Assembly: GCA_025526915.1 (NCBI GenBank)
Contig: JAHLKH010000121.1
Location: 1-64,000 of the forward strand
Direction of reading: 5' to 3'
Source: Entophlyctis helioformis
Lineage: Eukaryota > Chytridiomycota > Chytridiomycetes > Chytridiales > Chytriomycetaceae
DNA length: 64,000 nucleotides
Below, piece after piece: positions 10,662 to 64,000 of the stretch. How positions within the stretch are numbered: position 1 is the stretch's first letter; each line of letters opens with the position of its first letter. Under the pieces are notes generated by a model. It was not told the origin of the DNA and made no database searches. It saw only the letters and a program-made list of their open reading frames with translations. The position numbers were made by a program, and so were the translations under genes.

Positions 10662-10929
10662 CTGTGTGCGATTGAGGAAGCCGCCAAGCGGCACATCCGC
10701 GCACGTTTGAGAGTCGGCCGCTGATTGGCTGGCTGTTGTGCCTGAGAGTGCGCCGTTGATTGGTCCGTCAGACAGTCACGTGTTGCTGGCGTGACTGCGT
10801 GGTTTGGCGCTGGTTTTGTCAACGTCAATGTGTGCCACGAAGCAGACACCGAGCTGTAGGTGGCATGCAAGCAGATGTGCATCGCCCACGGGTCGTCCAT
10901 GCACGCTGCTGACTCGAGACTCTTGGGTC
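10662..10929. promoter_or_regulatory. Divergent intergenic region, ELMO gene / ATP23 paralog
   Basis: 268 bases separate the two divergently oriented start codons, so the stretch should hold both promoters. Sequences such as GATTGGC (CCAAT-box-like, on either strand near 10722-10760) are present. No firm TATA element is seen. Confidence 0.35.
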
Positions 10930-11651
10930 ATGCTCGATACGCCGGCCGAAGGGAGCCGTCTCAACATTCATATGGACGAGCAAGTGCTGGACTCGCTGGT
11001 CGGTCCACGGACCAGCAACAGCAACGAGAGCAGCAACGGCCCGGCATCCCACAATGCCACTGGCGGCTCAAGCCTGCGGATACGCAGGCTGCTACAGGGT
11101 CTGGCCGACAGCGGCTGTCCGTTCCAGCGCGGCCATTTCCAGCTGACAGCCGAATGCCCGCCTGGCGTCGCTGGCGGCTTTGATCCAGAGCGAGGCGTGA
11201 GCAGGCCGCGTCTGTCGTCTGCTGCCTGGTATCGAGAGGGCGATCGCATGCTGACTCTGCAGGACCCGGCATGCACACCCAGATTGTTCTGTGCACAGGG
11301 ACGCTTGTGTCCAGAGCGCACATGGAAGACACGATCGCGCACGAGCTGGTGCATGCGTACGATCAGTGCACAACTCGCTTTGATCCCATGAACTGCAGGC
11401 ACCTGGCATGCACAGAGATCCGTGCTGCGAGTCTGAGCGGCGACTGCAGGCTGGCGACCGAATGGATGCGCGGCAACTTTGGGTTCAAAGGCGCCTTTGA
11501 GGTGGGGTCGGCTCTCATGCGCGAGCTGGCGTGCCCTGTGCAAATGCGCGCATCATGGAGCAGGATTAGGTCGACGGCCCAGGAACTGACCCGAGATGTC
11601 TGGCTGGCCGTGCCACAACACAGCAATGCGTGCGGAGGAGAGCCACGCTAG
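10930..11651 (+). CDS. Divergent ATP23-like metalloprotease paralog
   Basis: ATP23 is a mitochondrial intermembrane-space zinc metalloprotease that processes ATP synthase subunit 6 in yeast. Two exons (10930-11196 and 11283-11651) give 211 residues. They include GGFDPERG/IVLCTGT and the zinc-binding HELVH motif within MEDTIAHELVHAYDQC, then ASLSGDCRLATEWMRGN. Compared with the neighbouring paralog it has lost the Cys-x-x-Cys pair before GGF (AECPPGV instead of KCVPCDP). It also lacks the conserved aromatic-acidic C terminus (DTAPFDE), ending in a different tail. The HExxH site is intact. This looks like a locally duplicated, fast-evolving copy. Whether it is active is unknown. Confidence 0.8.
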
Positions 11652-11855: not shown

Positions 11856-12703
11856 TTAGAAAATCTCGTCAAATGGCGCCGTGTCGTTGAAGCAGCTGTC
11901 CCACACCGCACGCACCGCATCCTCGGCCACACCATCCGCCTGGCATGTGGGCACCTGCTTGACGCCCAGCACAGCGCGTCGTCGCACGCACTCTTGAAAG
12001 TGCTTAAAGAATCCCAGGTTGCCGCGCATCAGCTCGCGCGAAAAGCGGCAGTCTCCCGACAAGGCGGCCGCGCGGATCTCGGAGCATGCAAAGTGCTCAG
12101 GCTTGTCCCACTTGACGCGCGCCGTGCAGTGGTCGAATGCGTGGATGAGCTCGTGCGCCATGGTGTCCTCCATGTGGGACTTGGACGTGAGCTGGTTCTC
12201 GCACAGGACGATGCCGTGCGTCGGTGCGAAGCCGCCCGCGCGTGTTGGGTCGCACGGCACGCACTTGAAGTGGTCGGGCTGCAGCGTGCAGCCTGCCTTG
12301 TCGAGCTCCTTGAGCATAAACTGCACGATCGGGCCTGTCCGTGGGGTCGGAGGCATGATTAGCAAGCGAATGCGCTGCGCATTGGGTGTGCGCGGCCGCA
12401 AGCGACCCCAGTCGGCCGGCGACTGCAGGACTCACTGCTCTGCAGAATCTTTGTGCGCCATTTGAGTGCTCGCTTGTGCTCGGCCGTCTCGTTGTCTGCA
12501 GCTGTTGCAGCTGTTGCAGCTGTGGCTGGCTCCAGCAAGGCGGGCGGTGCATACGCAGCCTGTGCATGTGGTGCTGCTGGCTGCGTCTGTGTCTGCGTCT
12601 GTGCCTGCGCCTGTGTCTGTGTCTGTGGTGCTGTTGGCTGCGACTGCGACAGGCCAAAGAGGCCGCCCAACGACGCCGCCCACGACGACGATCTCTCGGC
12701 CAT
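11856..12703 (-). CDS. ATP23: ATP23 mitochondrial inner membrane protease / assembly factor
   Basis: Canonical ATP23: a metalloprotease and chaperone for F1Fo ATP synthase assembly. Exons 12703-12436 and 12334-11856 fit through a GTGAGT...ACAG intron and give 248 residues. The N-terminal exon is Gln/Thr/Ala-rich (QTQTQAQAQ repeats). Exon 2 has HFKCVPCDP, GGFAPTHGIVLCENQL, the catalytic HELIHAFDHC, AAALSGDCRFSRELMRGN and the terminal NDTAPFDEIF. An upstream in-frame ATG at 12802 would add 33 residues. It is tail-to-tail with the divergent paralog at 10930-11651; the 204-bp spacer between their stops shows nothing else. Confidence 0.9.
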
Positions 12704-12978
12704 TCGACGTTTGCGCAAATCACGGAATATGGGATCTGAGGGGTGGGCAATAGGGCGAGGGAATGCCGGCAGTTGCCGGCAAAATGCCCGACATCCAAAC
12801 AATTACCAAGAATCATTGAATTAAATTGGACCCGAGAGGCGTCGAATGGATGCCCGCATATCACACGATTGAAGGTTCGAGTCAGCAACCAGCATGGACG
12901 ACAGACAGGCGAGGCACATCCAACGAAGTGCTCACCTTCGTAAAGTGACCCTATTGGTCGATCGGGAGGTGCCCCGAT
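12704..12978. other. Spacer downstream of the two-nuclease locus
   Basis: These 275 bases lie between the ATP23 start and the stop of the nuclease locus. No open gene is seen. The octamer TGCCGGCA, itself palindromic, occurs twice at 12764-12771 and 12774-12781. If the C-terminal part of the neighbouring locus is a Fanzor/TnpB protein, this is where its guide RNA would be expected, since these RNAs usually overlap or follow the 3' end of the gene. Nothing here proves such an RNA. Confidence 0.3.
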
Positions 12979-13602
12979 TCATATTGTGCTGGAAGTCACA
13001 GCACGTGGAGTTGCATGTGCCTTGCTGGCTCGTGACCCGCGGACAGACCGTGTCCGTGGTGGAGGCGGCAGGACGATGGGCGGATCGGGTGGTCTTGGAG
13101 GCCGCTGGTTGACAGGCAGCTCAGGTACTGGAAGCTGCTGGACGACAGGCTGACTGGCCTTTGTGTGCGTCAAGTAGAGCGGCCGCTCTCCATCGAGCAA
13201 ATGCCCCAGTGCGACCATTCCGATGTTGGTGGCTCCAAGCACGTCTCGGTGGTAGACGGTCTTGCAGTCTGTGCACTCGTAGCGTCGCAGGTTGGTGCGG
13301 TTCTTGTATGGGATCCGCTGCTTGCATGCGGACACATCTGGCTGGTCAGGTTCTCGTTGCAGCGGTAGATCTGTGTGTGTGTGTTCATGATCGTGTGGTC
13401 AGTTGGTACACAGACGGATGGATGGATGGATAGATGGATGGCATGGCATCAGACGCACATAGGCATATCCAGACGACCGCAGATGCCTGATGAGAAACTT
13501 CTCAAACACTGCATGCCGGCCACCTTGGCCTGTAAAGTCAATGCCCAATGCCCAGACAACTGGGATGTTGTCCTCTGCCGGCTTTGTTTGGTCGAAGGGC
13601 AG

Positions 13603-13951
13603 GCCTTGAGACGCAGGAGATGCGCGCTTGCCAGTGGTCGATCCTGCCAGCTTCATGATGCCTTCAAGAGCATGTCCGCGAAAGACATGCTGTTGCTGCG
13701 CATGGAAAAACGCTCGGCCTTGACCTTCTGTGGAATGCCATGCCATGCCATGCCATCCAGTGCAATCAGCAGGCGATCAAGCAGCATGGCGATCATGCAA
13801 TGCATCCAGAAGCAGAGAAAACATACCTTTGCATTCAGGAATGTCGAGCAGTACGCCAAGCAGCGAAGATCCCAAAAGGCTCTCTCGCCTGCTGAGACGC
13901 TGGATCGGCATGCTTTGCCATCTTGAAGGCAATCGCCTCATGGATGTCGGC
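13603..13951 (-). repeat. Shared 350-bp module, copy in the two-nuclease locus
   Basis: This stretch and 56988-57338 are highly similar DNA, including the intron and its flanking exon sequence. The homology ends abruptly at GCCTTGAGACGCAGGAG on one side and at the ATCCATGAGG / GTCCACGAGG position on the other. Relative to the other copy this one lacks single bases near 13897 and 13670, which break its reading frame. Confidence 0.85.
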
Positions 13952-15299
13952 TGCCTTGGCATATCGGCCATTGAACCTGGCACAAGAGACAGGCGCTGTG
14001 AGTTGATCTGGTCAAGAGTGCACAGAGTCATTGCATACATACCATCGCAGAAGTTCGCGCTCAGCTTGAAACATGCCAGAGGAGAGCACATAGTTGGCCT
14101 CGAGCGTGTATGTGCCGGTATTGACGTTGAGCAGCATGCTGGACGCGCCAAACAGGTACCGCTGGCCCCAGTCTAGACTGACAACGCGAACAGTCTGGTA
14201 GCCCTTTTCGGCGAGCAGCTTGTTGGCATCAGCAACATCAGGTAGTCGCTGGGATGCATTGAAGTTGCGCTTGGCCTGTCATGCCATGGCATGAGTGAGG
14301 GATGTGCAATGCATGTGCACCAATGCGCGAGGTTAGCATGCAAGTGACATACAAGGTTTGGCACTTTTGGCTTGGCAGCTGTGGATGGCATGTCAGTTGG
14401 TGTGGACAGCAAGTACGCGTCTGGATTGGCACAGCAACTCACATTCGCCGTTGAGGTAATCAGGCACACAATCAGCCTCATTGGCAAGACTGGGAAGCTC
14501 GCATGAAGACGCCGTGTCGGGACCTGCGAAGCAAGGCGGCGGTTAGAATTGATGTGTGCACCAAAGCATCCAAGCACGGCACATACTGCAAGGCGACTCT
14601 GGACGGTCTGTGCGATAATCGCGAACCAACTGGCCGACGCTGTATCCGTTCGAGATGACACTACTCATCCGTGTCCGTTTGGTTGGTCTCGCTGGGGGTA
14701 GAGCATCAACCGCAGCCTGGATGAAGTCCTTGCGCTCCTTGCCACGCAGACGCTGCTTCTTGGCCTCTTGCGTCGCCTTGGCTCTAGCCGCTTTCTTGGC
14801 CTTGGTGTTGGCTGCGTCCATTTCCGCTTCGGCTTCTGCCGGCGTTTGATACCGGCCTTTCTTGGGGCGGAGGCCGGGAAGCAGGACGTCCATGACGCAA
14901 TTCTCGCGACTCGAGCTGAATGCCTTCTTGATCTCGCTGTCGGTTGACTTGAGTGTCAACTTTTTCGAGCCAGGCTCTTTGAGAAAGGTGGATTGTTAGT
15001 ATCAAATCATAAAAAGATGGCAAAAACAGGCAGTGCAACTTACTGATCGCAGCAAGTAGCTCCTTTCGCAGTGCTTGCAAAGCAGGATCCTGCCCCTTGC
15101 TGTCGCGCTCCTTCTTTGTCCCCATCACAGACCAAAAGAGTGTCCTCTCTGTGATGAGAACGAAAGGGTCGCAGCTTGCCGGCTGCGGGCAAAGCTTGAT
15201 GCTCTGTCTCCCAGCGAGATTGCGCAGCGCATGGAACTTGCCGGGATGCGACAGCGACTCACTGAGCACAATCGCAGCGAGCTCGTCTAGCTCTGGAGG

Positions 15300-16650
15300 T
15301 AGCACGACAACGGCCTTGCCCTCTGTGGCTGAGGAAGAGCTGGATGCTGCGGCCTTCTTGCTGCGTGGCTTCTTTGGTGCGTCCTTGCCCTCCGTGGCTG
15401 GCGATGGGCTCGGCGCCGCGCTCTCGGTGGTGGCAGCCTTCCCGACACATGGCTTCTTGGCATCCTTGGCAGCGGCGGCCTTAGCAACGCGTGGCTTCTT
15501 GGCGGCTTTGGCAGCAGCACCATTGGCAGCCGTGGCGTCCTTGGCAGTGGTGTCCTTGCCGACGCGTACCTTCTTGGCTACGCCGCCCTTGTCGGTGATT
15601 GAAGTGCTGGACGCGGTCCGCTTGTGGGTTGGCACGGCGTCCTCAGTGGCAGCCTTCCCAACGCGTGGCTTCTTGGTGGCTATGGCAGCAGCAAGCCTGG
15701 CGTCCCTGGTGGCTTTGGCAGCTGCATCCCTGACGGCTTTGGCAGCTGCACGCTCGGCGTCCCTGGCGGCTTTGGCAGCTGCACGCTCGGCGTCCTTGGC
15801 AGCTTTGGCAGCTGCGCGCTTGGCGTCCCTGACGGCTTTGGCAGCTGCGCGCCGGCGTCCCTGGCGGCGTTGGCAGCTACACGCTTGGGATCCTTGGCGT
15901 CTGCGGCGTCCTTGGCAGCTTTGGCAGCAGCGCGCTTGGCGGCGTTGGCAGCAGCACGCTTGGCGGTCTCAGCGTCCCTGGCTTTCTTGATCAGGTACGT
16001 AGTCCACGCCGTCGCTTGCTTGGGAGTTGAACCGCGCACAAGCTTGAGGCACGCTGCAAACACCAGGTCGGACTGGCTTCCAATGTAGTGCTGCGCCAGC
16101 ATGGCACACACACTCTTGGCGAGGTTGCTGAAGATATCATTCGCAGCTTCCGCGCAGAGGCTGCCGTCAAGCCTGTCTGGTAGAGCCGGCTCCTGCGCGA
16201 CGGCTGGCGGCATTTTGGGCTGTGGTGTGCCTTTCTTGATCGCATTGGCGTGCACCATGCCTCGCGTCCATGACCGGTGCATCATCAGCTGCATGGCCGT
16301 GACGAGCCACGCGTTGATCGTGCTCATATTGAGACCCGGCTGGGCCATCTGCTTGCCACTGAAAATGTACGACAGGTGGCGCAGCATACAGGCCATGGAC
16401 GTCTCGCCGCCAGAAGCGCTGCTGATGATTTCCGTGAGCAGCTGGTTCGCTGTTGGCACCGCCGGTGCTGCTCCTGGCTGCTCAGACTCGTCGGCGTCCT
16501 CGGCGTCCTCAGACTCGTCGGCGTCGTCCTCAGACTCGTCGGCGTCCTCAGACTCGTCGCGTCCTCAGACTCGTCGGCGTCCTCGATGTCCTCAATGTCC
16601 TCATACTCGTCGGCGTCCTCGCTGTCCTTTGACTTCTTGACCCTCTCGTG
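15300..16650 (-). repeat. Charged repeat hinge inside the two-nuclease locus
   Basis: Within the 2.1-kb exon 17139-15044, 16480-16640 is built of repeated DADESED-type units (DNA unit about 18 nt, GACGCCGACGAGTCTGAG). Then 15330-16000 encodes histone-H1-like Lys/Ala repeats of the AAKAARDAERAA type. Each block contains one missing base relative to its own repeat unit (near 16559 and 15852), and each shifts the frame. The blocks separate the FEN-like and TnpB-like parts and could be a flexible, DNA-associating linker. Confidence 0.7.
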
Positions 16651-19600
16651 CAGACATATCTCGAGTCTCGTGCCCGTGGCGAGTGGCACCGGATCGCCAA
16701 AGCGAGGATCGCTGCTCTCTGGGTTGTACAAACTTGAGCCATACATGATCCGCGCGTTGATGCCCTTTCTGAGCGTAAATCGGCCGGACAGGAAATCCTC
16801 CCTTGACACGCCGCCGGGGCGGTTGGTGCCGTCTGAGTTGCTGGGATCGTCGAGGGCTCTGATATCATCGTTGCTCAAGAAGCAGAACCCGGTCTGCTTT
16901 TCTTGGAACCACTGGTAAACGTGGTATTTTGGCGGGAGGGGCGCGTCTTGAACGATCTCGAGGAGCTCTTCAAGGACGGCACCAATGACGATAAGGCCGG
17001 CCTGCCGAGTACCGACGGTGAACGAGTACACACAGGTAAACTTGTCCTCGACGATCAGATCCCGCGTCCATGTCTCTGGCGTCTTCCTGCCATGAAGGCC
17101 ATGGAATCTGACGCGCAATGGATCACTCGAGGTAAGGTCCTGCACACCACGCCAAGCTGCCAGTCAGTACATGCATCGCCATGCATGCAGGCAGAATGGC
17201 GATCCTAAATCGTACCTCGTATAGCACTCTCATGCCACAACGATCAGCCGCGTCCACAGCGGGTCGATTGGTCGCGTCCACAGCGGGTAGATTGGTTGCG
17301 CCTCCTTTTGATTGCCGCACCTTGTCGCCGATGGCCGCAAGGAGTGTTATGAATCGCGCGGTAACGATCTGGCTCATCTTTCTGAGCTTCAGCTGTAGTG
17401 CCCGTCGTGAGCGAATGACGACTCTACCAAAACACGCATGTCAGCAAGTGCTCTCACGGCACATCGCACAGCATACATCACTTACACTCGCGTTGTGCCA
17501 GAAGGAAACCTGCGGTGCTGCAGGCCTGACCTTTGCCTGTTGGTCTTCGCGGCCTTCTTTGCCTCAGTATCTACAGCTTCCGTTTCGCTCTTCTTTTTGA
17601 GCTTGGCGAGCATGGCTGGCGTGAGAGGGCGTGGTGCCTGCAGAGGTTGGATGGCAACATGAGCAATGCATTCCGAGTGCACAAAATACATATGCAAGCA
17701 TCAATGGTACATCAGAACTAACCGTCGTCTGGGTGTCTGCAGCTCGATTGAGAGAAAAGACAACCCGCTGTGCTTGTCCAGGCCAACAGTTGGTAGATGA
17801 CCATTTACGCTTGGGCGGCGTTGGCGGTTGAAGCCCCTGTCAATTGGAAAAATGAGCGACTGCACCAAGTCATCACATGCACACACGGCCAGTGTAGACA
17901 GAGACGCACCGATGCCTGCTCGATGATTGACTTTAGCAGAGCAATAGCCTCGGCTTGCTGCTCGACAAGTGTCACTGGTTGGCCCTTCGTTTGAGCTTTC
18001 AGGTCTTTCAGCTGTTTTATGGCCCTGTCGCGGATTTCGGCAAAGGTCTTTGAGGAAACGCGGCGGGTGTTGATCTTGCCTTGATACTTGGGTTTCTGCT
18101 TGTTTTTCTGCGTTTCTGGTACTAAAGTAGCACATTCGACAAAGGCAGCACTGTGAGTGGATGGTGTCAAGTCATTCTGATGCAAGCAGCACGTACTTGG
18201 AGTTGATGAATGCTCAAAGGGTACGCATGGAGGATACACGATCTTGTTCAGCTGGTTCTGCATCACCAAAGCGACAGTCTGTTCGATGGACAGTGGATTG
18301 GGTTAGACACTTCAAGGCAAGAAATGCACATGAGTCCAAGTCATGCAGAAACTTACGGTTGCATGCTGAATGGCCCAAGCTGGTTTGTTGAGCAACGTGC
18401 GCGCTTCCCGTACAGGAGGCTTCTTGCAGGCAAGCGCTACAAGTCGCGCGCTTGCCGCCCGGCTGATCCTCGCCAGAATGTCGCGGCCCGCGACTCCGCC
18501 ATGATTGCCAGAGAGACGGCCCGCCGCGTGCTTGACGATGCAGTCAAATGCGATCGGGCAGCCGTTGACCTGCTCAAACGCGGTGTCCATTTGCTCGCTG
18601 CTGACAATGGTCTCGAGGTGCCGGTTGATGTCGCTCTGCGTCAGATGCACGACGTTGGAGTCTGGGTGTCGTTCTTGCCAGTTGGAGTGGGTCAGGAGGC
18701 AGCCGTCATGTCGCTGGCAACTGCATCACGATCCAAAAGTTGCATCAAGGACAGGAGAACAGAGTCAGCAATGCGAGAACCTGCAGAGATCGCATGCATG
18801 AGTACCTTGGTTGAGCTGCGGCGGTCTTGACGGCAGCCTTGCCGCTGTCATTCCATGTGGTGATAGATGGTCAGTACAGTGCTCTGCATGCAAATGCATC
18901 AACAGTGCCGCGTGCTTGACCGATCGCGCAATGACTTGCCTCTGCCCTTGCGCATCGCGAGATTGACCGCTGCTTCTGCTTGGGGCTTTGAACGCCGCAG
19001 CGGAAGCTCCTGACTCGTCGAGGTAAACGAAAACGTCAAAGGCGTTGAGAAATGCCTTGGCGAGGTCCTCGCCTCCGATTGGCAACAAGTCCTTGACGTA
19101 CGCGTCCCTGAGGCCCGTCAGGAAGTCGTCGGAAAACTTGCGGTTGCGGAGGCGATCACGGAAGCCGGCCAGATCCGTGTTTTCCCTTGCTTATCACGCC
19201 ATCAACGTACTCGTTAATGAACTTGGCACCAAAACCAATGCCTGCAAGATGATGTGAGTGGCAACGCATGTTAGTCGGCATCGCAGCATGGATGACAATA
19301 CAGAGCATGAAGCCAGGAATCGCACGCACCACGCCCGTAGCAATCGAAAAAGTCATTCTTGGCGAATGCAGCTAGAGTTCGGCAAGAGCCATCGAACTCG
19401 TACACTCCCATGGCTGACGCAGTGGACGGGATACCTGCATGGTTATAAGACCGGATCTCGCTGTCACGTCCCTTGCGCATGCTCATCGTGATGACAGGGC
19501 AGCGGCCGTCGCAGTGCATCACCAAGTCCGAGTCGTTGGCGATAACCACCATTGGTGTGTCGCTGTTGCAAGATGAAGACTGTTAGCCGTCAATCAAAAC

Positions 19601-20319
19601 ATACAGTTGCGATGGCGGTCAATACCTTGGATTTCTTGCATACTCGGCTGCGCACCGGGCGATGCAAACGTCCGCCTCGTGGTCACACCAATGAGCCGTA
19701 TGCTGTGGCTTGGTCTCGAGGATCTCCGCGATCGCCTCGTAAATACGCTGCTTGTCGTCGTGCGTGAGCGTGAACGAACGTCGCAGCGCCTGTCTGTCTT
19801 TCCTGGATCATTGATGGTTAGTTAGAATCGCCTCGATGTGGCATGAAGAAGTGGACGCACCTGGTCAAGTGTTTCGATCTCTTGCACTTGCCGCGTTTGC
19901 GAATGCACCGCAGAACAGTGGCCACCCCATTCAGGACCTTAACGGCACGGTTCCTGTGCTCGATCTTAAGCCCAGAGTCGCCGTGCTGACCGTCAACATG
20001 AAAGACGTATGTGTGCTTGTCGCCGAACTTGCCAATGAACGACTCGAGTACTGGCTCGAGGACTGACTTTCGTTCGGCCATGGATGGTTGTAGATCAGGC
20101 CTTCCTTGCCCGATAAAGTACGCAAAGAAGACGCTCATCACATCGACGTGGACGATGCCGCAAGTGCTGGGTGTGGCCGTGTTGGTGTCGCTCGGATCTC
20201 GTGGCGGTTGTGCATTGTCCAACACAAATGTCAACGCCGAGGACCAAGGCACGTCCTTGTGTACGACGACGGCCTTTGCCTTCCTGGAATGTGCAGACTG
20301 GCCGATGATGCCCATGTTG

Positions 20320-20384
20320 TGTGTGCGTGTGTGCGCAGTTGCTGATCGTGCGTGTGTGTGTGTGGTGTGTGTGTGTGTGTGTGT

Positions 20385-20472
<88 letters not shown>
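20320..20472. repeat. (GT)n microsatellite
   Basis: An impure GT repeat of about 150 bp with occasional GGT interruptions. It lies immediately upstream of the proposed start codon (20315) of the two-nuclease locus and so sits where that gene's promoter or 5' leader should be. Related CGTGTG/GCAGTTGCTGATCGTGC units continue to about 20550. Confidence 0.9.
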
Positions 20473-20474
<2 letters not shown>

Positions 20475-21811
20475 AGTTGCTGATCGTGCGTGCGCGGCTG
20501 CTGATTGTGCGCGTGTGTGTGCGAGTGCGTGTGCGGTTGCTGATCGTGCAGAACTCCTCGGCGCTGAAAGCTCAATCAGACAGTTGCAGAGTGTCCGGAA
20601 AGTTCGAAAACGCTTCTCCATTCCTTGCAGCGAGCAGCCCGATGGAACAATGGACAAAGGGCTCCACGCCTCGTCCTCCATGAGCATGGCCGTGGATGGC
20701 AAGCTGGGCTCGGCACAAGGCATTTGTTCCCTTTGGCCGAGCACAATGATTGGACGCCACTGGTCGCCAAATTTAATATCATTTCATTGTTCTTGGCCAG
20801 TCACTCTGAGCAGCGAACAGATGGCATTGATGCGGATCGTCTCTGCTTTGAGGCTGGCTTACAGCCCATCTTGAAGGGTATGGCTTGATGGCCACTGGGC
20901 AGCATACCAAGGGCCATCCTGCTTGTGGCAGTCTCGACTGGTGACAGCCGGCATTCTTCTGCAGAGACAACCGCGTCACAGCAGACCTTGACGTCTTGGT
21001 TGATGCTGGAGTGCGATGGCGCGCACAATGGCGCACGCGTCGGTAGAAGCGCCACCCCTCTTGAAACAGGCAGTGATCTAAGGGTTGGTGGCACCCAGAG
21101 CGCCACGCCCATTGTCAAGTTGAAGTGGCTTCTGAGATCATCAACCCAGATCGCCTCGATTCCACGATGCTCATAGGTTGAATCTGCAACCAAAGGCTTG
21201 CTTGATGCTCAACGGCGGTTGGATGCTGGCATGGCAGCCACAGCACTGGTTGCCCATCCAGCCTTGTTCATAGGGTCCATGCCGCAGTTGGAATCACCAA
21301 GTGCACATGGAATTGCTAGATCTCATCCGTGTGAATACCTCCAACCTGATGCCCAGCCCTCCTTTGTGCTCTGAGCAGTACTGAGATGCGCCATATCACT
21401 ATCTGGCTCCTTGGAACAGAGATTGCCAACCAACACCATGACAATCCTCCAATCTTTGACCGAGTAGTCATCCCAGATCTCACAAATGTGTCGCACTTTC
21501 TTGTGATGATGGTGCAAGGCGAGTTTCTCCTTGGGCACAGTGTCTTCATTGCCGACTTTGGATGCTGTTGACTTCAGTCGCCAGCAGGTCTGGGACGACT
21601 TGTTCTTTGCAGCCTGCAGTCGATCAGCCCTTTGTTGTTGACCGAGACTGTGCATGCTGCTCGTCATTGCATTCGCGGGCATGCTGACAAGCCAGGTGGG
21701 CGTGGCTGTTGGCTGTGGATGACGGGGTGCGACGGCATCGTGCCTTGAATGCAAGACTTGCTGATTATCTGCGCTGCTGGCTGTTGCAAAGACACTCGTC
21801 GCTGTGACCTT
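20473..21811. other. Unassigned accessory stretch, about 1.3 kb
   Basis: No gene can be supported. On the minus strand, fragments around 21320-21560 (for example WDDYSVKDWRIVMVLVGN) and 20800-21190 look like decayed coding exons rather than random sequence, but I recognise no family. I could not link them in phase. Position next to a dispersed repeat and a nuclease locus suggests mobile-element debris. Confidence 0.35.
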
Positions 21812-22574
21812 GCTGTGTACACCAAGGCAGCCAGGACAGAGGTTGACATGAGTGGGCAGAATTGCTGCAGGCATTCTGTGTGTATCGCCTCGACAGTTCT
21901 CAAAGTCAGACCAAGCCAAGCGCGAGGCCTTACAGCAGCTCGACGATACGCGGCAGCTCAACGATGCGCCGAGTGATCCATCCATGTCCTTGTTGGTGAG
22001 CTCGTCTGCCTCTTGTGCAATGGCTGTCAACAGTTGCGACTCTGTTGACACTGTGTGCCTTGACAATCTCGACGACGACAAGGACCTTGCGGACGAGCAT
22101 GGACAGCCAGCCGTTGCTGTAGCTGCCACGCCAACAGCCAGCCGCCAAAGAGCGTCAAGCAAGCGGAAGAGAGCAGCAGCAGCTGTGCCAGTGCGTCTGT
22201 GTCGGCTGTGACGTCGGTCGTTCGGACATTGCAGCAGGCAGCCCCAGCAGCACACACAAGTGCGCCGCCTGGACGCAGAAGGCCAACAGCTGCAACAGGA
22301 ATGGCACGACAGTCTTCGTGACACTACCAACACGCAACCAACTGCTGCCCCTGGGACAGGCTCAGCAGCCCACAAGCCAGCGTCAAAGCGACCACGACTT
22401 GAGAAGGCATCGCTGCAGGCTGCTCAGAGTGACTGGGAATTCGGACAAGAATATGAAATTGGATTCAAAAAGTTGAAATTGGATGCCAAATTGAACAAAA
22501 TTCGAGGCAAACCAGCCGGCCAATCAGGTGCCGGCGCAAGGTTTTCTATGGGAACGAAATCAATTACCCCCCCC
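21812..22574 (+). repeat. Dispersed repeat, copy I
   Basis: About 760 bp shared, in inverted orientation, with 58425-59214. It starts at GCTGTGTACACCAAGG and ends in a C tract (TTACCCCCCCC) that stops two bases before the start codon of the TEX261/SVP26 gene. Both copies share coding-like sequence, including AVYTKAARTEVDM, SCDSVDTVCLD and NKIRGKPAGQSGAG. The homology therefore includes protein-coding exons or their relics. I cannot assign the element class. Confidence 0.75.
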
Positions 22575-22576
22575 TC

Positions 22577-23769
22577 ATGGGATCTCAGATTGCGTTCACG
22601 CTGCTGACCTGGACCGGCCTGGTGCTGGGCCTTGTGTTTGTGACGCTCTGTCTGGGTGAGCAGCCGCCCTGAGCATGCACGTCTTGGCCCGCACAGCCTG
22701 CATCCAGCACGGTGCTCTGCTGCTCTGCTGCGCTGCGCTATCCTCTGGCAAGCGGCCGGCCAGCCCGTGCCAGCCCGCCGCCCGCCGTGCAAGCATCGGC
22801 ATCTGTGTTGTTGCTGCCAACACGTCAACCCGCATCAGCCCCATCTGAACCTCGCTGCATGCGCCTTGGCTCACACTGCTGCCCTGCCCTGCCCTGCCCT
22901 GTCCAGCCTGCGGCCTCTACTTTATGGCAGAATTCGTCGAAGAGCACACGGTCCTCACAAAGCGGATAATCAAGTACACCACCTATGTACGGCCCCCTTG
23001 CACTTCTCGCTGTCTGCAGCCCTCTGTCTGACACTTGCCGATAGACCATTGGCGCGGTTCACGTCCTGATGGCCTTTGAAGGATTCCCGCTTGCTCGCGT
23101 CGGCTTCTCCGGTGCCTGTCTCGCCATCTACTCGCTCATGCTGCCCAGCTTCCCCTCGATCCAAGTCACCAGTCCCAGCTTTATCGTCAGTTGCAGTGCG
23201 TACATCGACATCCCTCCCTTCTGCACTCTCTTGCAACGAGCCTAGCATTCTAACCACAAGGCTGGCATCTGGCATCTGGCGTCTGGCGTCTGGCACTTTT
23301 CCAGTCTTGGTCATTTCCAACCACTTTGCATGGTTCTTTTACTTTACCACCAGGCGGCACACGTTCAACGAGATTGCAAGCTTCTTTGGCCTGCTCGTGT
23401 GGCTTGTGCCGTTTCTGTATTTTGTATCGTTGAGTGCAAACGACTACACGCTGCCCTTTGGTGAGGATTCGGGCACGCGCGCACGTCATCTGGCTGTCGC
23501 ACCACACTTTGAGCCACGACTCACACAGCCTTGTTTGGTCGGCAGATACAAAACAACGAGGAAGCCCGCTGGCGGGCCCGCCAGGCATGGGCTCGCGCTC
23601 AGCGTCAGGCAGCAGCCTCGCACCCGATGTGGGCGAGCGGTACGCGTCGTCGTCCATGGCGTCGGCGGTCTACAAGAAACGCGGCGGCGGCAACATCATC
23701 AAGTCCATTGCCCAGTTTCTGTCGTCCAAGAAAGAGGCACTCATTCCAACGTCGTCCAAGTTTGTCTGA
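22577..23769 (+). CDS. SVP26: TEX261/SVP26 (Erv26) family ER-Golgi cargo adaptor
   Basis: An integral membrane protein of early secretory vesicles that sorts glycosyltransferases and phosphatases into COPII carriers. Five exons fit in phase: 22577-22655, 22907-22986, 23045-23195, 23305-23460 and 23546-23769, giving 229 residues. Exon 1 is a transmembrane segment. Later exons carry LYFMAEFVEEHTVLTKR, HVLMAFEGFP, NHFAWFFYF and the hallmark WLVPFLYFVSLSANDYTLP. The C-terminal tail is cytosolic-like (Ser/Lys-rich). The 5' leader is almost absent because a dispersed repeat ends at 22574, so this gene's promoter may lie within the repeat. Confidence 0.9.
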
Positions 23770-56767: not shown

Positions 56768-57399
56768 CTATTGTTCAACATCGCTCGGGTCCGAGTCGTC
56801 GGCAGCAAGATCGCCATGCACACAGGCTCCAAACGATGCGCTCGCGTCCATCGTCTGCCGTGCCGCCTCGGCATCGTGCGCATTGGTCATGTCCAGACCC
56901 TTGTCCTGCGCAATCAGCCGCATCGCTGCCTCGGGCACGAGCACGTTCTGGATGTAGTCGGTGACCGACAGCGGAGACGTGGCAGCGGCCTTGAGACGCA
57001 GGAGATGCGCGCTTCCAGTGGTCGATCCTGCCAGCTTCATGATGCCCTCCAGAGCCTTTCCGCGATCTGACATGCGCTTGCAGCGCATGGCAAACCGCTT
57101 GGCCTTGACCTTCTGTGGAATGCCATGCCATGCCATGCCATCCAGTGCAATCAGCAGGCGATCAAGCAGTATGGCGGTCATGCAATGGGCATCCAGAACC
57201 AGAGAAAACGTACCCGTGCATTCAGGAATGGCGTGCAGTACGCATGGCAGCGCAGATCCCAAAAGGCTCTCTCGCCTGCTGTGGCGTTTGGATCGGCATG
57301 CTTTGCGGTCTTGAATGCAATGGCCTCGTGGACGTCGGTCGGACACTTACCCGCCAATAGCGAACCTTGACGATCCAACGAGTTGAGCAAAGCAACCAC
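56768..57399 (-). pseudogene. RTC4-like domain fragment fused to a module shared with the two-nuclease locus
   Basis: Exons 57399-57214 and 57112-56768 (intron GTACGT...CCACAG) form an open chain of 176 codons with a stop but no in-frame ATG at its 5' end; an upstream exon is missing or lost. The C-terminal 60 residues (YIQNVLVPEAAMRLIAQDKG, then RQTMDASASFGACVHGD) resemble the RTC4-like domain. The upstream part (HEAIAFKTAKHADP...RAFWDLRCHAYCTPFLNAR, then IMKLAGSTTG) matches exons 13976-13827 and 13727-13459 of the two-nuclease locus, including the intron between them. Either nuclease exons were captured by an RTC4-like gene, or an RTC4-related segment was captured by the nuclease. Function unknown. 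Confidence 0.6.
56988..57338 (-). repeat. Shared 350-bp module, copy in the RTC4-like fragment
   Basis: Partner of 13603-13951. Here the two exons are open and joined in phase, so this copy keeps the frame that the nuclease-locus copy has lost. It served as an internal reference for locating two of the frameshifts. Confidence 0.85.
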
Positions 57400-58424: not shown

Positions 58425-59214
58425 AGGGGGGGGGGGGGGGGGGGGGGGGGGTAATTGATTTCGTTCTCATAGAGCACCCTGTGCCGGCACCTGATTGGCC
58501 GGCTGGTTTGCCTCGAATTTTGTTCAATTTGGCATCCAATTTCCAATCTTTTTGAATCCAAATTCATATTCTTGTCCGGATTCCCCAGTCACTCTGAGCA
58601 GCCTGCAGGCGATGCCTTCTCAAGTCGTGCCCGCTTTGGCGCTTGCTTGTGGACTGCTGAGCCCGTCCAAGGGGCAGCAGTTGTCTGCGTGTTGGTAGTG
58701 TCACGAAGAACTGTCCTGCCATTGCCTGTTGCGGCTGTTGGCCTTCTGCATCCAGTCGGCGCACTTGTGCGTGCTGCTGGGGCTGCCTGCTGCAATGTCT
58801 GAACAGTCCAACGTCACAGCCAACACAGACGCACTGGCACCAGCTGCTGCTGGTGTCTTCCGCTTGCTTGGTGCTCTTTGGCGGCTGGCTGTTGGCGTGG
58901 CAGCCACAGCAACGGTTGGCTGTCCATGCTCGCCTGCAAGGTCCTTGTCGTCGTCGAGATAGTCAAGGCACACAGTGTCAACAGAGTCGCAACTGTTGAC
59001 AGCCATCACACAAGAGGCAGACGGGCTCACCAACAAGGTCATGGATGGATCACTCGGCGGATCGTCGAGCTGCCGCGTATCGTCGAGCTGCTGTAAGGCA
59101 TCACGCTTGGATTGGTCTGACATTGAGAACTGTCGAGGCGATACACAGAGAATGCCTGCAGCAATTCTGCTCACACATGTCAACCTCTGTCCTGGCTGCC
59201 TTGGTGTAGACAGC
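58425..59214 (-). repeat. Dispersed repeat, copy II (inverted)
   Basis: Inverted partner of 21812-22574, about 36 kb away. It begins with a run of about 28 G residues followed by TAATTGATTTCG, the complement of the C-tract end of copy I. The pair stays similar across its length with small indels. The much longer homopolymer here suggests tract expansion or an element terminus with a variable tail. Confidence 0.75.
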
Positions 59215-59350
59215 ATACTCTTTCTGGACGGGATCGCTGATGGATCCCCATACAAAGATGTTGTACGATCTGTCGTAGGATGGTATGTGCTGTTTGTGCA
59301 GTCAGTCTGCTGTGCGATCAGTGCATACACATCCTATGAGAATATCCTAC

Positions 59351-59811
59351 CGGCATTTGAATGATGGCTCAACAAGGAATCCGCGCTGCTTGACGTCCAT
59401 CGACCTGATCTTGAAGATGAGTTGCATCTGTCGTGCGGCTGACATGAACTCTTCCAGGTCTGACTTGTCATTTCGGCCCTTTCCAGTCCGTCGTAAACTG
59501 TCTCGCCACGCGTTAAACAGCTGTGTTGCATGCAATGGTTAGTGCTGATCGTCAAGGAGAGTGTGTTGTCTGCATGCTTGTAGGCTTACTTGCTCAACGG
59601 GATAGGACGTAAGCGCGCGACCATACAGGTGCATAAAGGTCGCTCCTTCTGGGACTGCAAACTCTGCTTTTGGATCAAGTGTCGCAAGCATGCCCAGATT
59701 CTGGTTGTTGGCTGCTGCAAAGACACTCGTCTCGGCAAACTGCCGTGTGAGGTTTAGAAGTCAGTGAGCGATTACACTGCTTAGTGTGCGTTGTGGGTGA
59801 TCAGACTTACT
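59351..59811 (-). pseudogene. Exon chain of an unrecognised gene, probably mobile-element related
   Basis: Three consecutive coding-like exons with good splice sites are seen. One ends at 59811 (…LLEHYAKYRDHHK, donor GTAAGT). The next is 59739-59590 (FAETSVFAAANNQNLGM…, 150 nt, donor GTAAGC). The third is 59520-59351 (LFNAWRDSLRRTGKG…, donor GTAGGA). They read toward dispersed repeat copy II, whose coding-like sequence (AVYTKAARTEVDM, then SCDSVDTVCLD) may be the 3' exons of the same gene. Upstream minus-strand frames at 59870-60640 are open but not linked. I recognise no domain. Confidence 0.4.
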
Positions 59812-60639
59812 TTGTGATGATCGCGGTACTTTGCATAGTGCTCAAGGAGTTGGAGGACGCTGCTGTGAGGAGGCGGAAGGACTGCGGTTGGATGCACAAG
59901 ATATTCATTGTCAGACCAGTAGCAGAGACAGGCAGGGGAGATGGAGGGTACCTGCGGTTGGATGCACAAGACGACAGCTGGGGCAAGTCTGGTGCATCGA
60001 CCGCTAGCAAAAAGGCGCGTTCCAATAATGCCCATGCAGCCATTGGCACGCGGCATCAGTGCACAATGAGAGACACATTGCAGCTCATTACAGCTGCTCT
60101 TGAACGAGGGATCAGATGCAATGCCATGCATCATGATGTCAGGATTGCTGGGATCTACGAGGCACGGGAGCATGACGAGAAGCTTGTCAATGTCTTTGAG
60201 AAGCACCACCTATACTTCATGGCCGCCAAGTTTCACCTTGATGGCAAAAGCAGGGACGTTGTTGTTAAGTCATCTTGGAACGAAACTTGTCAGAACCAAG
60301 GGGAGGCGAGACACTTGGATGCATATGACGCCTTTACGCGGGCCGTCTGTGAGCTTGACGAGTGGCAACAGCAAGTATATTTGGTTCTTCTTGTCCACCA
60401 GTGTCATGCTTTCAAATGAACCATTGTTGCAGTGGAAGCACAAGCCGCAGTCCAGAAGCCTCTCTCGTTGGGTCGATGACCTGTGGGTCTGCTTGACTGG
60501 GAGCTGGCTCTGTGGCGGCTGCTGCGTCCATGTCGTCCTGCTGGTGCACGGCGGCATGTGGTGGCTGTTGCTCGTCCATTCCAACTCTGTTGTCAGAGCG
60601 CCACTGCCACTGGTGGTGGGATCGCTGTGATTGGTCAAG

Positions 60640-61396
60640 CCCAGATCTGGTCATGGCACTTGCCCAAATGTGTGCCATCAATAGCGAGCACAACACGGGC
60701 GACAACACAGCGGCAGCTGACAGGCGGATGGTTCCGATGGGCACAAGAGTGCCATGCACATGGGCTGCCACATGACCAGTGCCTCGCAAGCCTTCACAAG
60801 CCTGCCGCACCATCAACCACTCGGGCTTACCAAGTCGACACACAACCATCCATTGCAGCACGCCCCTTCACTGCGAGGCGGCATCCGTCAAGTCTTGCAG
60901 CCTTCGAGTGGTGCGTACATGCCGCTCATTGCCCAGTGGAGCCAGTCGACTGCCAACCACGGCAGCTGCCGCACTGTTGGAGCAGTGGTGAGCTGACTCT
61001 TGACCGTGCCTTGCTCCACCTCCTGCCCACCAACCAACCGACCGCCCCATCCCGTCCAGCCCACGACGCTGTCCAACCCCCTCTTGCTCTCGCAGCCACA
61101 CGCAGTCGCTCGGCCCGCAGACGGCAGGTTGGTGTGCTCCTGTCCATCCATCTACAGACCCAACTGCGTACTCTGACTGGCACTGACGCTCACACTTGCT
61201 GCCTTTGCTCTGTCCTCTCTCGCTCTTGCCGCCTCACTGTCCATGTCTGGCTGGCCCAGTTCTCAACGCACGCCGCCCCTCACCCGCCAATGCCTCCTTG
61301 CCCGCCAACGCCCCCTTGCCCACCAACTCGTCCAGCAAGCACGTGCTTGCACACTGACACCACCGCCACTGCCACCGCCACCGCCACTCGCGCAGC
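60640..61396. other. Spacer upstream of the second nuclease paralog
   Basis: No gene is supported. The last 400 bases are rich in CCACC, CCAAC and CTTGCC pyrimidine repeats and probably contain the promoter and leader of the gene starting at 61397. Confidence 0.4.
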
Positions 61397-64000
61397 ATGG
61401 GCATTCCAAGAGTGATCCCAAAAGTCATCAAGGGGCAGGGTGGCAAGGCACTACCTTTCGGGACGACGCTGTCTGCTGGACTGGATCTGGTGCTTGAAGA
61501 CACCACGCAACACAGCATCAGCAGCATTTACAACAGCGCGACCACTCGACCCCATCTTCTGCCACCACCATTGATGCTGCGCCTGCTTCAAAGGAAACCA
61601 CCACCACTGTAACGGATGCTCGGTCGCGGTCACGTGATCCACGTGATCCACGTGACCCACGTGACCGGACAGACATTGTTGGGCCGCACCGGCCGCTCTG
61701 GTTTCCCCCGTTCTTGCAGTCGTCTGCCCGCCGTTCCCCTGTGTGCATACTCACTGCCCCGAGACCAGCCGGCAAGTCCGCCTGGAGGCCCAGTGCTACA
61801 GCAAGAACCCAACTTTTTTTTCGGTCGGGGCAGCATTGGTGAGCCTGGCTGGACATCCTCGCCGCCTCTGCTGCCTCGGCTGGAACCAGGGCCTGCTGGC
61901 GGTCGGCAGTCTTGCCACCCAGGCCCTGCGGAGTTGCGCCTCGAGTCTCGCACACTGGACGTCTTTGTCTCAACGCTCCTGTGCTCTCGCGGCATCCGCT
62001 TGTCGACACTTGCCGCTGTGCACCAGCGCACTTTTTTTTCATGCGTCTTGGTCAGCAGCTGGCAGTGGGCAGTGTCGTCATCCACCACCGGCTCTGGCAT
62101 CCTATGCCTCTTTACAGCCGCCTCACACTCACCTTCCGTCGCATGGTTCGATATCTGCCGGCATCAGCTCGCTCGCCAGCATCAGCTCCACCTGCTTGTC
62201 GCCGCATCTGCTTCTGGACATTGTCTCCAGGCATGCTCTGTGCCTCCTGTGAGAGGAGTTGGGGCGGGATCCACAGCCGATCACCACTTACACCCTCAAC
62301 TGCACCGCTGCAACTTTCGTCAGCCGCCACAACCACGCCGATCAGTCCTGACCACATCTGGATCAGCACGTCAGTATCGGCATTTGCTTCAGCACGGCAC
62401 AGCCTGCATCTGCCACAGCTGCATTGACCGCCATATCAACCACCACTGGATCGGCTTGTGCCTCGCTGCTTCTGCAGCACGATGTTCTCGTCGACGGGCG
62501 CGTTCATCACCTCGGCCTTGGCAGCATCAGCCGCCTCAGCCACCCAGCTGCCATTGGTCTCGGCATCAGCATCCATCGGCCGCAGCCTGCAGACACCGGC
62601 CCCAGCACGTTGCACATCTGTAGCTCAGCATCAGCTCCTGGACCGGGTATCCAGGCCATGCTCGGTGCCTCTTGCGAGAGGAGTCTGGGGTGGGATCCCT
62701 TTTGGATCGCCACTTGAACCCACACTGCGTCCCTGACCAGCCATCAGCCGCCACCCTACACCGTACGGCTCTGACCACATTCGGATCAGCTTACACCAAC
62801 ACGGCCACGCACGTCAGCTCGGTCACCACCGGCACGATCTTGCAGCTGCTGTTGCCTTTCCATCCTGATCGCCGCACCATCCGGCTTGTCCACCTGTTCA
62901 TGTGTCTGTTGACCATGTTCACCCTCTCGGCCCTGATCTGTCCACCTCTCCACCTTTCCCTCTTCCATCCAATCCACCTCTCCATCTCTCCCCCCTCCAT
63001 CCAATCCATCTCTCCATCTCTTCCCCTTCCATCCACTCCATCTCTCTCTCTCCTTGTTGCTCTGTGCGCACGGTTCCCCGTCCTGTGTCCTTCGCGTCCA
63101 TTGTTGCCCACACCTCTGCTTCTTGTGTGTGCAACGCCCATGCATCCTCTTAGTCGCTGTTCATCCACTCTTCTTTCTTATGAGTGGCTGTCTACACTGG
63201 GGGGAGTGTAACGGATGCTTGGTCGCGGTCACGTGATCCACGTGATCCACGTGACCCACGTGACCGGACAGACATTGTTGGGCCGCACCGGCCGCTCTGG
63301 TTTCCCCCGTTCTTGCAGTCGTCTGCCCGCCGTTCCCCTGCATGCATACTCACTGCCCCGAGACCAGCCGGCAAGTCCGCCTGGAGGCCCAGTGCTACAC
63401 AGCGCTTATACCAGCACCCCCGATACAACCACCGCCACCACAACCGCCACAACCGCACATGATCGCATCTGGCATTATCTACGTTGACGTCTTGAGCGTC
63501 TTTTATGGACAACTCCGTAAACTGGCTGCCTCCCACTTGCCATCATCTGTCAGTGGGTGGTTGGCAATTCTTGCACCTGTCCTTGACAGCTTCCTCAAGT
63601 CGGTCGGCAACGGCCGGATCGTCGTCTTCCATGTTGATGGCAGGCTTGCCGAGACTGGAATCAAGCAGCAGGCGCATGCCAGCCGCACCTTGGACGTCTT
63701 GCGTGCAGCAGCAACAGCTCAACAGTTGTGTGCCAAACGCAAACACCGTCACCGATGTGGGACATTAGAAAAGTAAGGTCACTTGTTTGTGCAGCATCAA
63801 GATGATTCTAACTAACAGTCATTGTTGCAGGAAAGAGGAGCAGGCGCTGATGCGCTGCTTCACTCTCACGCAAGGCAACAAGAAGCATATCAAGGAAGCG
63901 ATTGAGGCGTTTCTCGACCCGCTGTCATACCATGCTGTATGCTGGTGCGAACACAAAGCCGATGTTTGCATCGCACGCGCGGCCGCCCTCCATGTGCGTA
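61397..64000 (+). CDS. Second FEN1/XPG-like nuclease paralog (5' part; exon 1 split by an LTR element; 3' end outside window)
   Basis: Starts MGIPRVIPKVIKGQGG, comparable to MGIIGQ of the minus-strand paralog. Exon 1 runs 61397-61607, is interrupted by the LTR element at 61608-63399, and resumes at 63400-63772. The frame on the two sides is the same once the element is ignored. Exon 2 starts at 63831. Nuclease motifs are GIIYVDVLSVF, VVFHVDGRL and CWCEHKADVCIARAA. Intron 1 is at the same position and phase (phase 2) as in the paralog, with a CTAAC branch point. Whether the 3' part also encodes a TnpB-like domain cannot be seen because the window ends. With the element in place the frame meets a stop at TGTAA of the LTR, so this copy is probably inactive. 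Confidence 0.75.
61608..61800 (+). repeat. 5' LTR
   Basis: It differs from the 3' LTR at about three positions of 193, suggesting recent insertion. Four CACGTG E-box hexamers spaced 9 bp apart occur within 61632-61664; they would be strong bHLH-factor sites. Confidence 0.8.
63207..63399 (+). repeat. 3' LTR
   Basis: Same length and ends as the 5' copy and preceded by the polypurine-like tract. It also carries the CACGTG array and now lies directly upstream of the distal part of the nuclease exon. Confidence 0.8.

Follow-up and report, generated by a model that had tools for sequence, protein, structure and literature searches.

Introduction

Can a single gene carried by a DNA transposon encode both a FEN/XPG-like nuclease and a TnpB/Fanzor-like RuvC nuclease, and what could such a protein do for its element? 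This question is raised by a 64,000-nucleotide stretch of the chytrid Entophlyctis helioformis (assembly GCA_025526915.1, contig JAHLKH010000121.1, positions 1 to 64,000; hereafter the window, C121:1-64000), which we analysed together with the genome sample of 29.57 Mb in 482 contigs. An earlier note, made from the letters alone, had read such a gene on the minus strand. Our sequence comparisons indicate that the FEN-Fanzor-like fusion is very likely real and that it lies in a larger mobile element with inverted ends. We lean, with some reserve, towards a DNA transposon with terminal inverted repeats, 9-bp duplications and no recognised transposase of its own, whose one recognised gene, a fusion of a 5'-nuclease with a TnpB/Fanzor-type protein, would serve retention or homing of the element by cutting and resecting.

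The fused gene

The gene starts with MGI... at 20315, stops at 12979 and is divided into many exons. Its first exons carry FEN-type acidic motifs, and its last exons carry DWGQR, NENLTSQMCP, a split zinc ribbon and HRDVLGATNI. The earlier note had proposed 19 exons; the span, the multi-exon layout and the motifs stand, and the exon number is revised to 20 on the near-identical copy L009 (21 by program, 20 after by-eye correction of exon 2 and the end). The window copy does not form the one open product that had been supposed, as it differs from L009 by seven frame-changing exon indels, at least one of which, in the RuvC-I exon, is a fault of L009. The one-base insertion near 19186 of the window copy is absent from nine other aligned sequences at eight places, counting L007 and L014 as one copy.

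The intact homolog with both domains that the note had called for is found in the same genome. L017 (contig C50) has an open model of 17 exons and 1,846 aa in which the FEN motif set is followed by TDG (as TDGYT), the DWG of RuvC-I, the alternative glutamate and the zinc ribbon; the fused protein would measure about 1,850-2,000 aa. Matches to exons 1 and 3, to the middle exon and to the zinc exon were present in 13/13 diverged loci, which were chosen for having hits to all three parts. The gene-model program permits only GT-AG introns, so that GT-AG splice signals are not independent evidence; it can also bridge faults with false introns, and for several copies its models run into host genes or lose exons. 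The central claim of the note, one gene joining the two nucleases, is borne out by L017, by a profile match of the C-terminal (C) part above its cut-off and by the exon chain at the junction. An origin of the fusion by chance or artefact is ruled out because there are many collinear copies, purifying selection and the open copy L017. A long CA repeat lies directly upstream of the start codon (window about 20345-20465).

The C-terminal part and the middle exon

The spliced C part of L009 matches Pfam PF07282 (Cas12f1-like TNB) at 42.6 bits against a cut-off of 26.3, in agreement with the proposed TnpB/Fanzor relationship; an incomplete piece of the C part scored 23.6 bits. TnpB profiles match 4/4 members, all below the cut-offs of those profiles. 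According to PMC10711439, an alternative catalytic glutamate stands six residues ahead of the zinc motif. The corresponding pattern E-x6-CxxC-x(12-18)-CxxC-x(4-8)-D is present in L017, L023, L028 and A7 (4/4 sequences), and in L026 it is absent from the automatic model and present when the sequence is spliced by hand. The Fanzor/TnpB rule D-x(125,275)-[TS][TS]xx-C4 zinc-x(5,50)-RD, taken from PMC3627910, describes L017 and A7. The TDG motif, which in Fanzor1 belongs to the WED domain, occurs in three of the four families, namely B, D and E, whereas family A has SNG; it is also present in P0001, P0003 and P0004. Fanzors have been characterized by a RuvC-I motif that is near exclusively DPG (PMC10711439). 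Strict Fanzor membership was rejected because DPG is not found here, and the C part is best called, from its sequence, a divergent TnpB/Fanzor-type protein.

In the structure model of the middle exon (predicted local distance difference test, pLDDT, 42.3), helices come after a beta-rich stretch; the model gave no meaningful structural match. By analogy with the domain order in PMC10711439, the middle may comprise a WED barrel with REC. An alignment search of proteins with the C part returned eight relatives, all from Entophlyctis helioformis. Protein searches with the RuvC part and with the full-length model gave no hit, the latter using words from the first 500 residues and candidates of 0.55-1.75 times the model length; the FEN part alone was not searched at its own length. 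Searches of the PDB by sequence gave no relevant hit.

The mobile element

The gene is part of a unit larger than the 12979-20315 interval of the earlier note, with the minus strand as its sense strand. Alignments of near-identical copies to the window break off at about 22571-22578 and 12734-12738, and the termini are short inverted repeats starting GAGGGG... (Table 1). The 9-bp duplication is exact in 4 of the 10 copies with both ends compared (window, C144, C177 and C22), and in the control none of 81 cross-pairs match. The two flanks of C15 are alike over their first 6 bases, and C82 has the same string, displaced; the flanking 9-mers of C98, C103 and C18 differ, and the 5' flank of C333 is unreadable. 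Insertion sites vary among copies. Some diverged copies stop at other 3' positions (L023-L026, L028 and L051 at 12786, L017 at 12775, L018 at 12761), which implies 3' ends that are different or truncated. At E <= 0.001, exon-by-exon genome searches gave 214 matches for the N-terminal (N) part, 151 for the middle and 330 for the C part; these are matches rather than elements, and about 150 per part were listed. What the sequence itself shows is the element with its ends and duplications, the model of the fused gene and its conservation, and both sets of catalytic residues.

The 5' module is 93-97% identical in 11 other copies, in some of which the N part is just 53-60% identical. It is non-coding, to judge by its 231 variable sites, which lack codon periodicity, and by its many one-base indels. 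No second gene was recognised in the element besides the fused gene. Exact copies of the 22-bp 3' terminus number 59 in the genome; 12 of them, chosen as having no listed C-part match nearby, were inspected. Five belong to further FEN-Fanzor elements (L070, L073, L074, L076 and L077), and seven share only 22-42 bp of the end (L069, L071, L072, L075, L078, L079 and L080, with L075 and L079 near-duplicates). These solitary ends stand beside unrelated DNA, as if they were remnants of truncation or excision. A preference for insertion just upstream of genes was considered and set aside: 25/28 3' flanks and 14/18 5' flanks pass, and the pattern is uninformative because a fraction of 0.72 of control stretches pass too.

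A second FEN-Fanzor-type element, on the plus strand, occupies 58444-64000 of the window and runs on to about 70485 of C121. Within the window, 58444-59215 matches the 5' end and 63427-63987 the N part, with matches to the N part, the middle and the 3' end past the window. In addition, a RuvC-region fragment at 56983-57341 (minus strand) is 89-94% identical to several copies.

The conserved 3' tail and the proposed working

The last 237-268 nt are conserved in 19 copies with 86% mean column identity. The CTT...AAG segment occurs in 11 variants, 10 of which fold as a hairpin; eight beat 95% of shuffles in stability and three do not. A search of Rfam gave only one chance-level match. With its position compared to the guide-RNA layout of TnpB/Fanzor systems described in PMC10711439, we regard the tail as a candidate guide-RNA scaffold and nothing more.

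In the working that we favour, an RNA from the conserved 3' end, reading into the flank, would guide the RuvC half to a copy of the site that lacks the element. There, the fused 5'-nuclease would resect or trim the 5' ends of the cut, and this end trimming would favour repair in which the other allele serves as template and the element is copied back, resulting in retention or homing. We infer the single transcript, the guide RNA, both activities and the cut-and-resect process that this working entails.

Several observations weigh against it. The duplication fails or is partial in 5 of the 10 copies, with one more unreadable, and only 1 of the 54 predicted pairs in the 3' tail has changes on both sides. 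In each of families A, B, D and E, the four that were compared, RuvC-I reads DWG, not DPG. The linking exons are nearly neutral within family B, with ratios of nonsynonymous to synonymous substitution (dN/dS) of 0.50-1.18. As for the N part, the profile check that the earlier note had suggested gave no XPG match above cut-off: Pfam XPG_I_2 matched 4/6 members at 12.6-12.7 bits, under the cut-off of 24.2. Its structure model has low confidence (pLDDT 48.7), the best Foldseek E value is 1.4, and the hhalign probability is 3.4%.

Cargo or functional fusion

The alternative that survives best, though we consider it rather unlikely, is that the fused protein is real and mere cargo: an unrecognised or lost transposase would move the element in trans, and the FEN half would be irrelevant to mobility and retention. 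The transposase searches are compatible with this. No PF10551 match to a MULE transposase was found in the genome (the controls rang in 3/14), nor was a Merlin transposase in the Pfam search. KDZ transposase relics gave four matches at three places (G000 C334:6404-7253, C271:9823-10062 and C396:222-449), two of which contain stops. Among these three families, the only ones searched, no transposase was linked to the element, and none was noticed beside the solitary element ends, where the frames of 6/7 were read by eye. Described KDZ (Zisupton) relatives make 8-bp duplications according to PMC12730594; the 9 bp seen here, exact in 4/10 copies, differ from these and agree with MULE (MuDr) elements. 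Moreover, PMC3627910 describes Fanzor1 elements of fungi that make 9-bp duplications and lack a transposase.

The pattern of selection, however, argues against a dispensable FEN half, as this part is among the most constrained of the gene. Its dN/dS is 0.09-0.46 in 12/14 pairs, the computable ones, compared with 0.46-0.58 for the RuvC-zinc part (7 pairs) and 0.29-0.64 for the rest of the gene (14 pairs). When finer parts of L017 were compared with six copies, the values were 0.21-0.30 for FEN and 0.43-0.83 for RuvC-zinc; for the presumed WED, REC and TDG parts, the range inside family B was 0.11-0.38. Both ends of the gene are under purifying selection.

One gene or two

A pair of adjacent genes, one FEN-like and one Fanzor-like, that never form one protein seems improbable. 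The near neutrality of the linking exons within family B is compatible with two genes, and it fits a floppy linker as well. Exchange between families would likewise suit separate genes: divergence differs strongly between the parts of L023/L024 and of L026/L028, L027 consists of a family-E front and a family-A end, and recombination between families seems to have shuffled the FEN, middle and C modules (L023, L024, L026, L027 and L028). Nevertheless, the linking codons (151-154) are stop-free in 6/6 comparisons, and all 16/16 splice-site pairs of L017 are kept in 4/4 other family-B copies. Two family-C copies keep 14/16 pairs and show a few stops in the FEN and other parts. Ahead of the large middle exon, the chain of exons agrees in phase, and nearly in length, among L017, L023, L026 and L028 of families B, D and E (209-224 and 114 nt, then 155 nt, or 203 in L026); at the junction, the automatic family-A model has a different exon division. 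Moreover, the linker protein beats all 500 shuffles in 10/10 comparisons among families A, B, D and E, of which L023 against L009 is marginal (49 against a shuffle maximum of 47) and one other involves near-identical copies.

Identity of the N-terminal part

It is slightly less probable still that the N part has another fold with similar acidic motifs. The sub-threshold profile scores leave room for it; a profile search of the PDB with the N part gave no nuclease, and an XPG_I search of the genome gave four matches at three places, none at the listed element places. Against this stands the order of the motifs in six sequences: the acidic catalytic set (D; DG; EAD; DSD; D before GxGI) is complete in 5/6, while the automatic model of L028 lacks EAD and the first G of GxGI. 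The register with the host family member L096 points the same way (the host XPG L095 alone did not align in register by hhalign). In the fold list of the low-confidence model, 5'-nucleases occupy rows 1-26 of 50; the closest folds are EXO1, FEN1, T5 5'-exonuclease and XRN1, led by EXO1. The N part appears, by motif register and a weak model with no profile above its cut-off, to be a FEN/EXO1-like 5'-nuclease.

Least credible is that mobility depends on the fused protein as its enzyme, a staggered RuvC cut and the 5'-nuclease giving insertion and the 9-bp duplication: it is the sole gene recognised in the element, and three transposase-family searches tied none to it, but only three families were searched, insertion sites vary, and duplications flanking inverted ends are a usual mark of DDE transposases. 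We give as little credence to a self-sufficient element, in which one polypeptide would account for an RNA-chosen site, guided cut, resection and 9-bp duplication with no DDE transposase.

Comparison with known systems

A FEN-Fanzor fusion was not found in the literature searched, which comprised titles and abstract openings of the papers listed, mostly non-subscription ones and without supplements. Academ transposons carry an XPG-type nuclease, although a look-up did not confirm this; they have shorter duplications and a transposase of their own and are not known to have a TnpB-type part. The host EXO1/FEN1/XPG proteins share the acidic motif set and its order with the N part, and EXO1 leads its fold list, whereas the N part is below profile cut-offs, transposon-borne and fused to a TnpB-type part.

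Among the closest described elements are ROr-4, PBl-3 and MCi-4, fungal MuDr-type elements that carry Fanzor1 genes (Bao and Jurka 2013, PMC3627910, accessible part). These are likewise fungal DNA transposons with 9-bp duplications, inverted ends, a TnpB-type gene and no encoded transposase. However, that part of the paper mentions no FEN-like part, and the E. helioformis protein is far larger, has DWG and resides in a genome without MULE matches. SpuFz1, a Fanzor1 of Spizellomyces punctatus (Saito 2023, PMC10432273), is also from a chytrid and has RuvC, zinc-finger and WED/REC lobes and a 3' guide RNA. Its activity has been demonstrated and no FEN-like part is mentioned in the available text, whereas the E. 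helioformis protein has DWG and is known from sequence alone. Alternative-glutamate TnpB proteins with D-hydrophobic-G (Yoon 2023, PMC10711439) resemble it in DWG and in the Glu six residues before the zinc motif. They are prokaryotic, while the present protein is fungal, with many introns, TDG and a fused N part.

Coordinates and neighbouring genes

Two reading frames that resemble, by eye from their translations, copies of one ATP23-type metallopeptidase gene lie at 10795-11391 (plus strand) and about 11856-12703 (minus strand) of the window. The element lies 34 nt ahead of the start codon of the second frame.

Table 1. Features of the mobile element and its fused gene in the window
Feature	Position	Strand	Basis
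Whole mobile element, 9,839 bp	12738..22576	-	near-identical copies end here
Target-site duplication AGATCCCAT, 5' end of element	22577..22585	-	exact match to 12729-12737
5' terminal inverted repeat GAGGGGGGGG	22567..22576	-	end comparison of copies
5' module, 1.4 kb, non-coding	21177..22576	-	substitution and indel pattern
Fused gene, frame-disrupted in window copy	12979..20315	-	exon model, comparison with L009
Exons 1-4, FEN/EXO1-like part (20315-19861, 19802-19626, 19562-19330, 19241-18994)	18994..20315	-	mapped from L009
Linking exons, FEN-like part to large middle exon	17216..18844	-	L009/L017 models, selection, linker comparison
Large middle exon, presumed start of Fanzor-like lobe	15044..17139	-	L009 model, structure model
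TDG-type motif exon (SNGYS here, TDG in other families)	14587..14976	-	family comparison
RuvC-I exon; putative catalytic Asp of DWG at 14171-14173	14039..14275	-	translation
Last exon: alternative Glu (13353-13355), zinc ribbon, RuvC-III HRD	12979..13370	-	translation, profile
Conserved 3' tail, candidate guide-RNA scaffold	12738..12978	-	alignment, folding
3' terminal inverted repeat CCCACCCCTC, 9/10 complementary to 5' repeat	12738..12747	-	end comparison
Target-site duplication AGATCCCAT, 3' end of element	12729..12737	-	exact match to 22577-22585

Implications

The occurrence of DWG together with the alternative glutamate in a fungus provides a case outside the DPG fingerprint that defines Fanzors. 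If both activities are real, a TnpB/Fanzor-type cutter and an EXO1/FEN-type end processor would have been joined naturally in one protein, and this fusion would have been kept under selection in several diverged families. It would then become testable whether nucleases of this kind hold transposons in place through cut-and-resect repair, and the protein would represent a naturally occurring editor designed to promote homology-directed repair.

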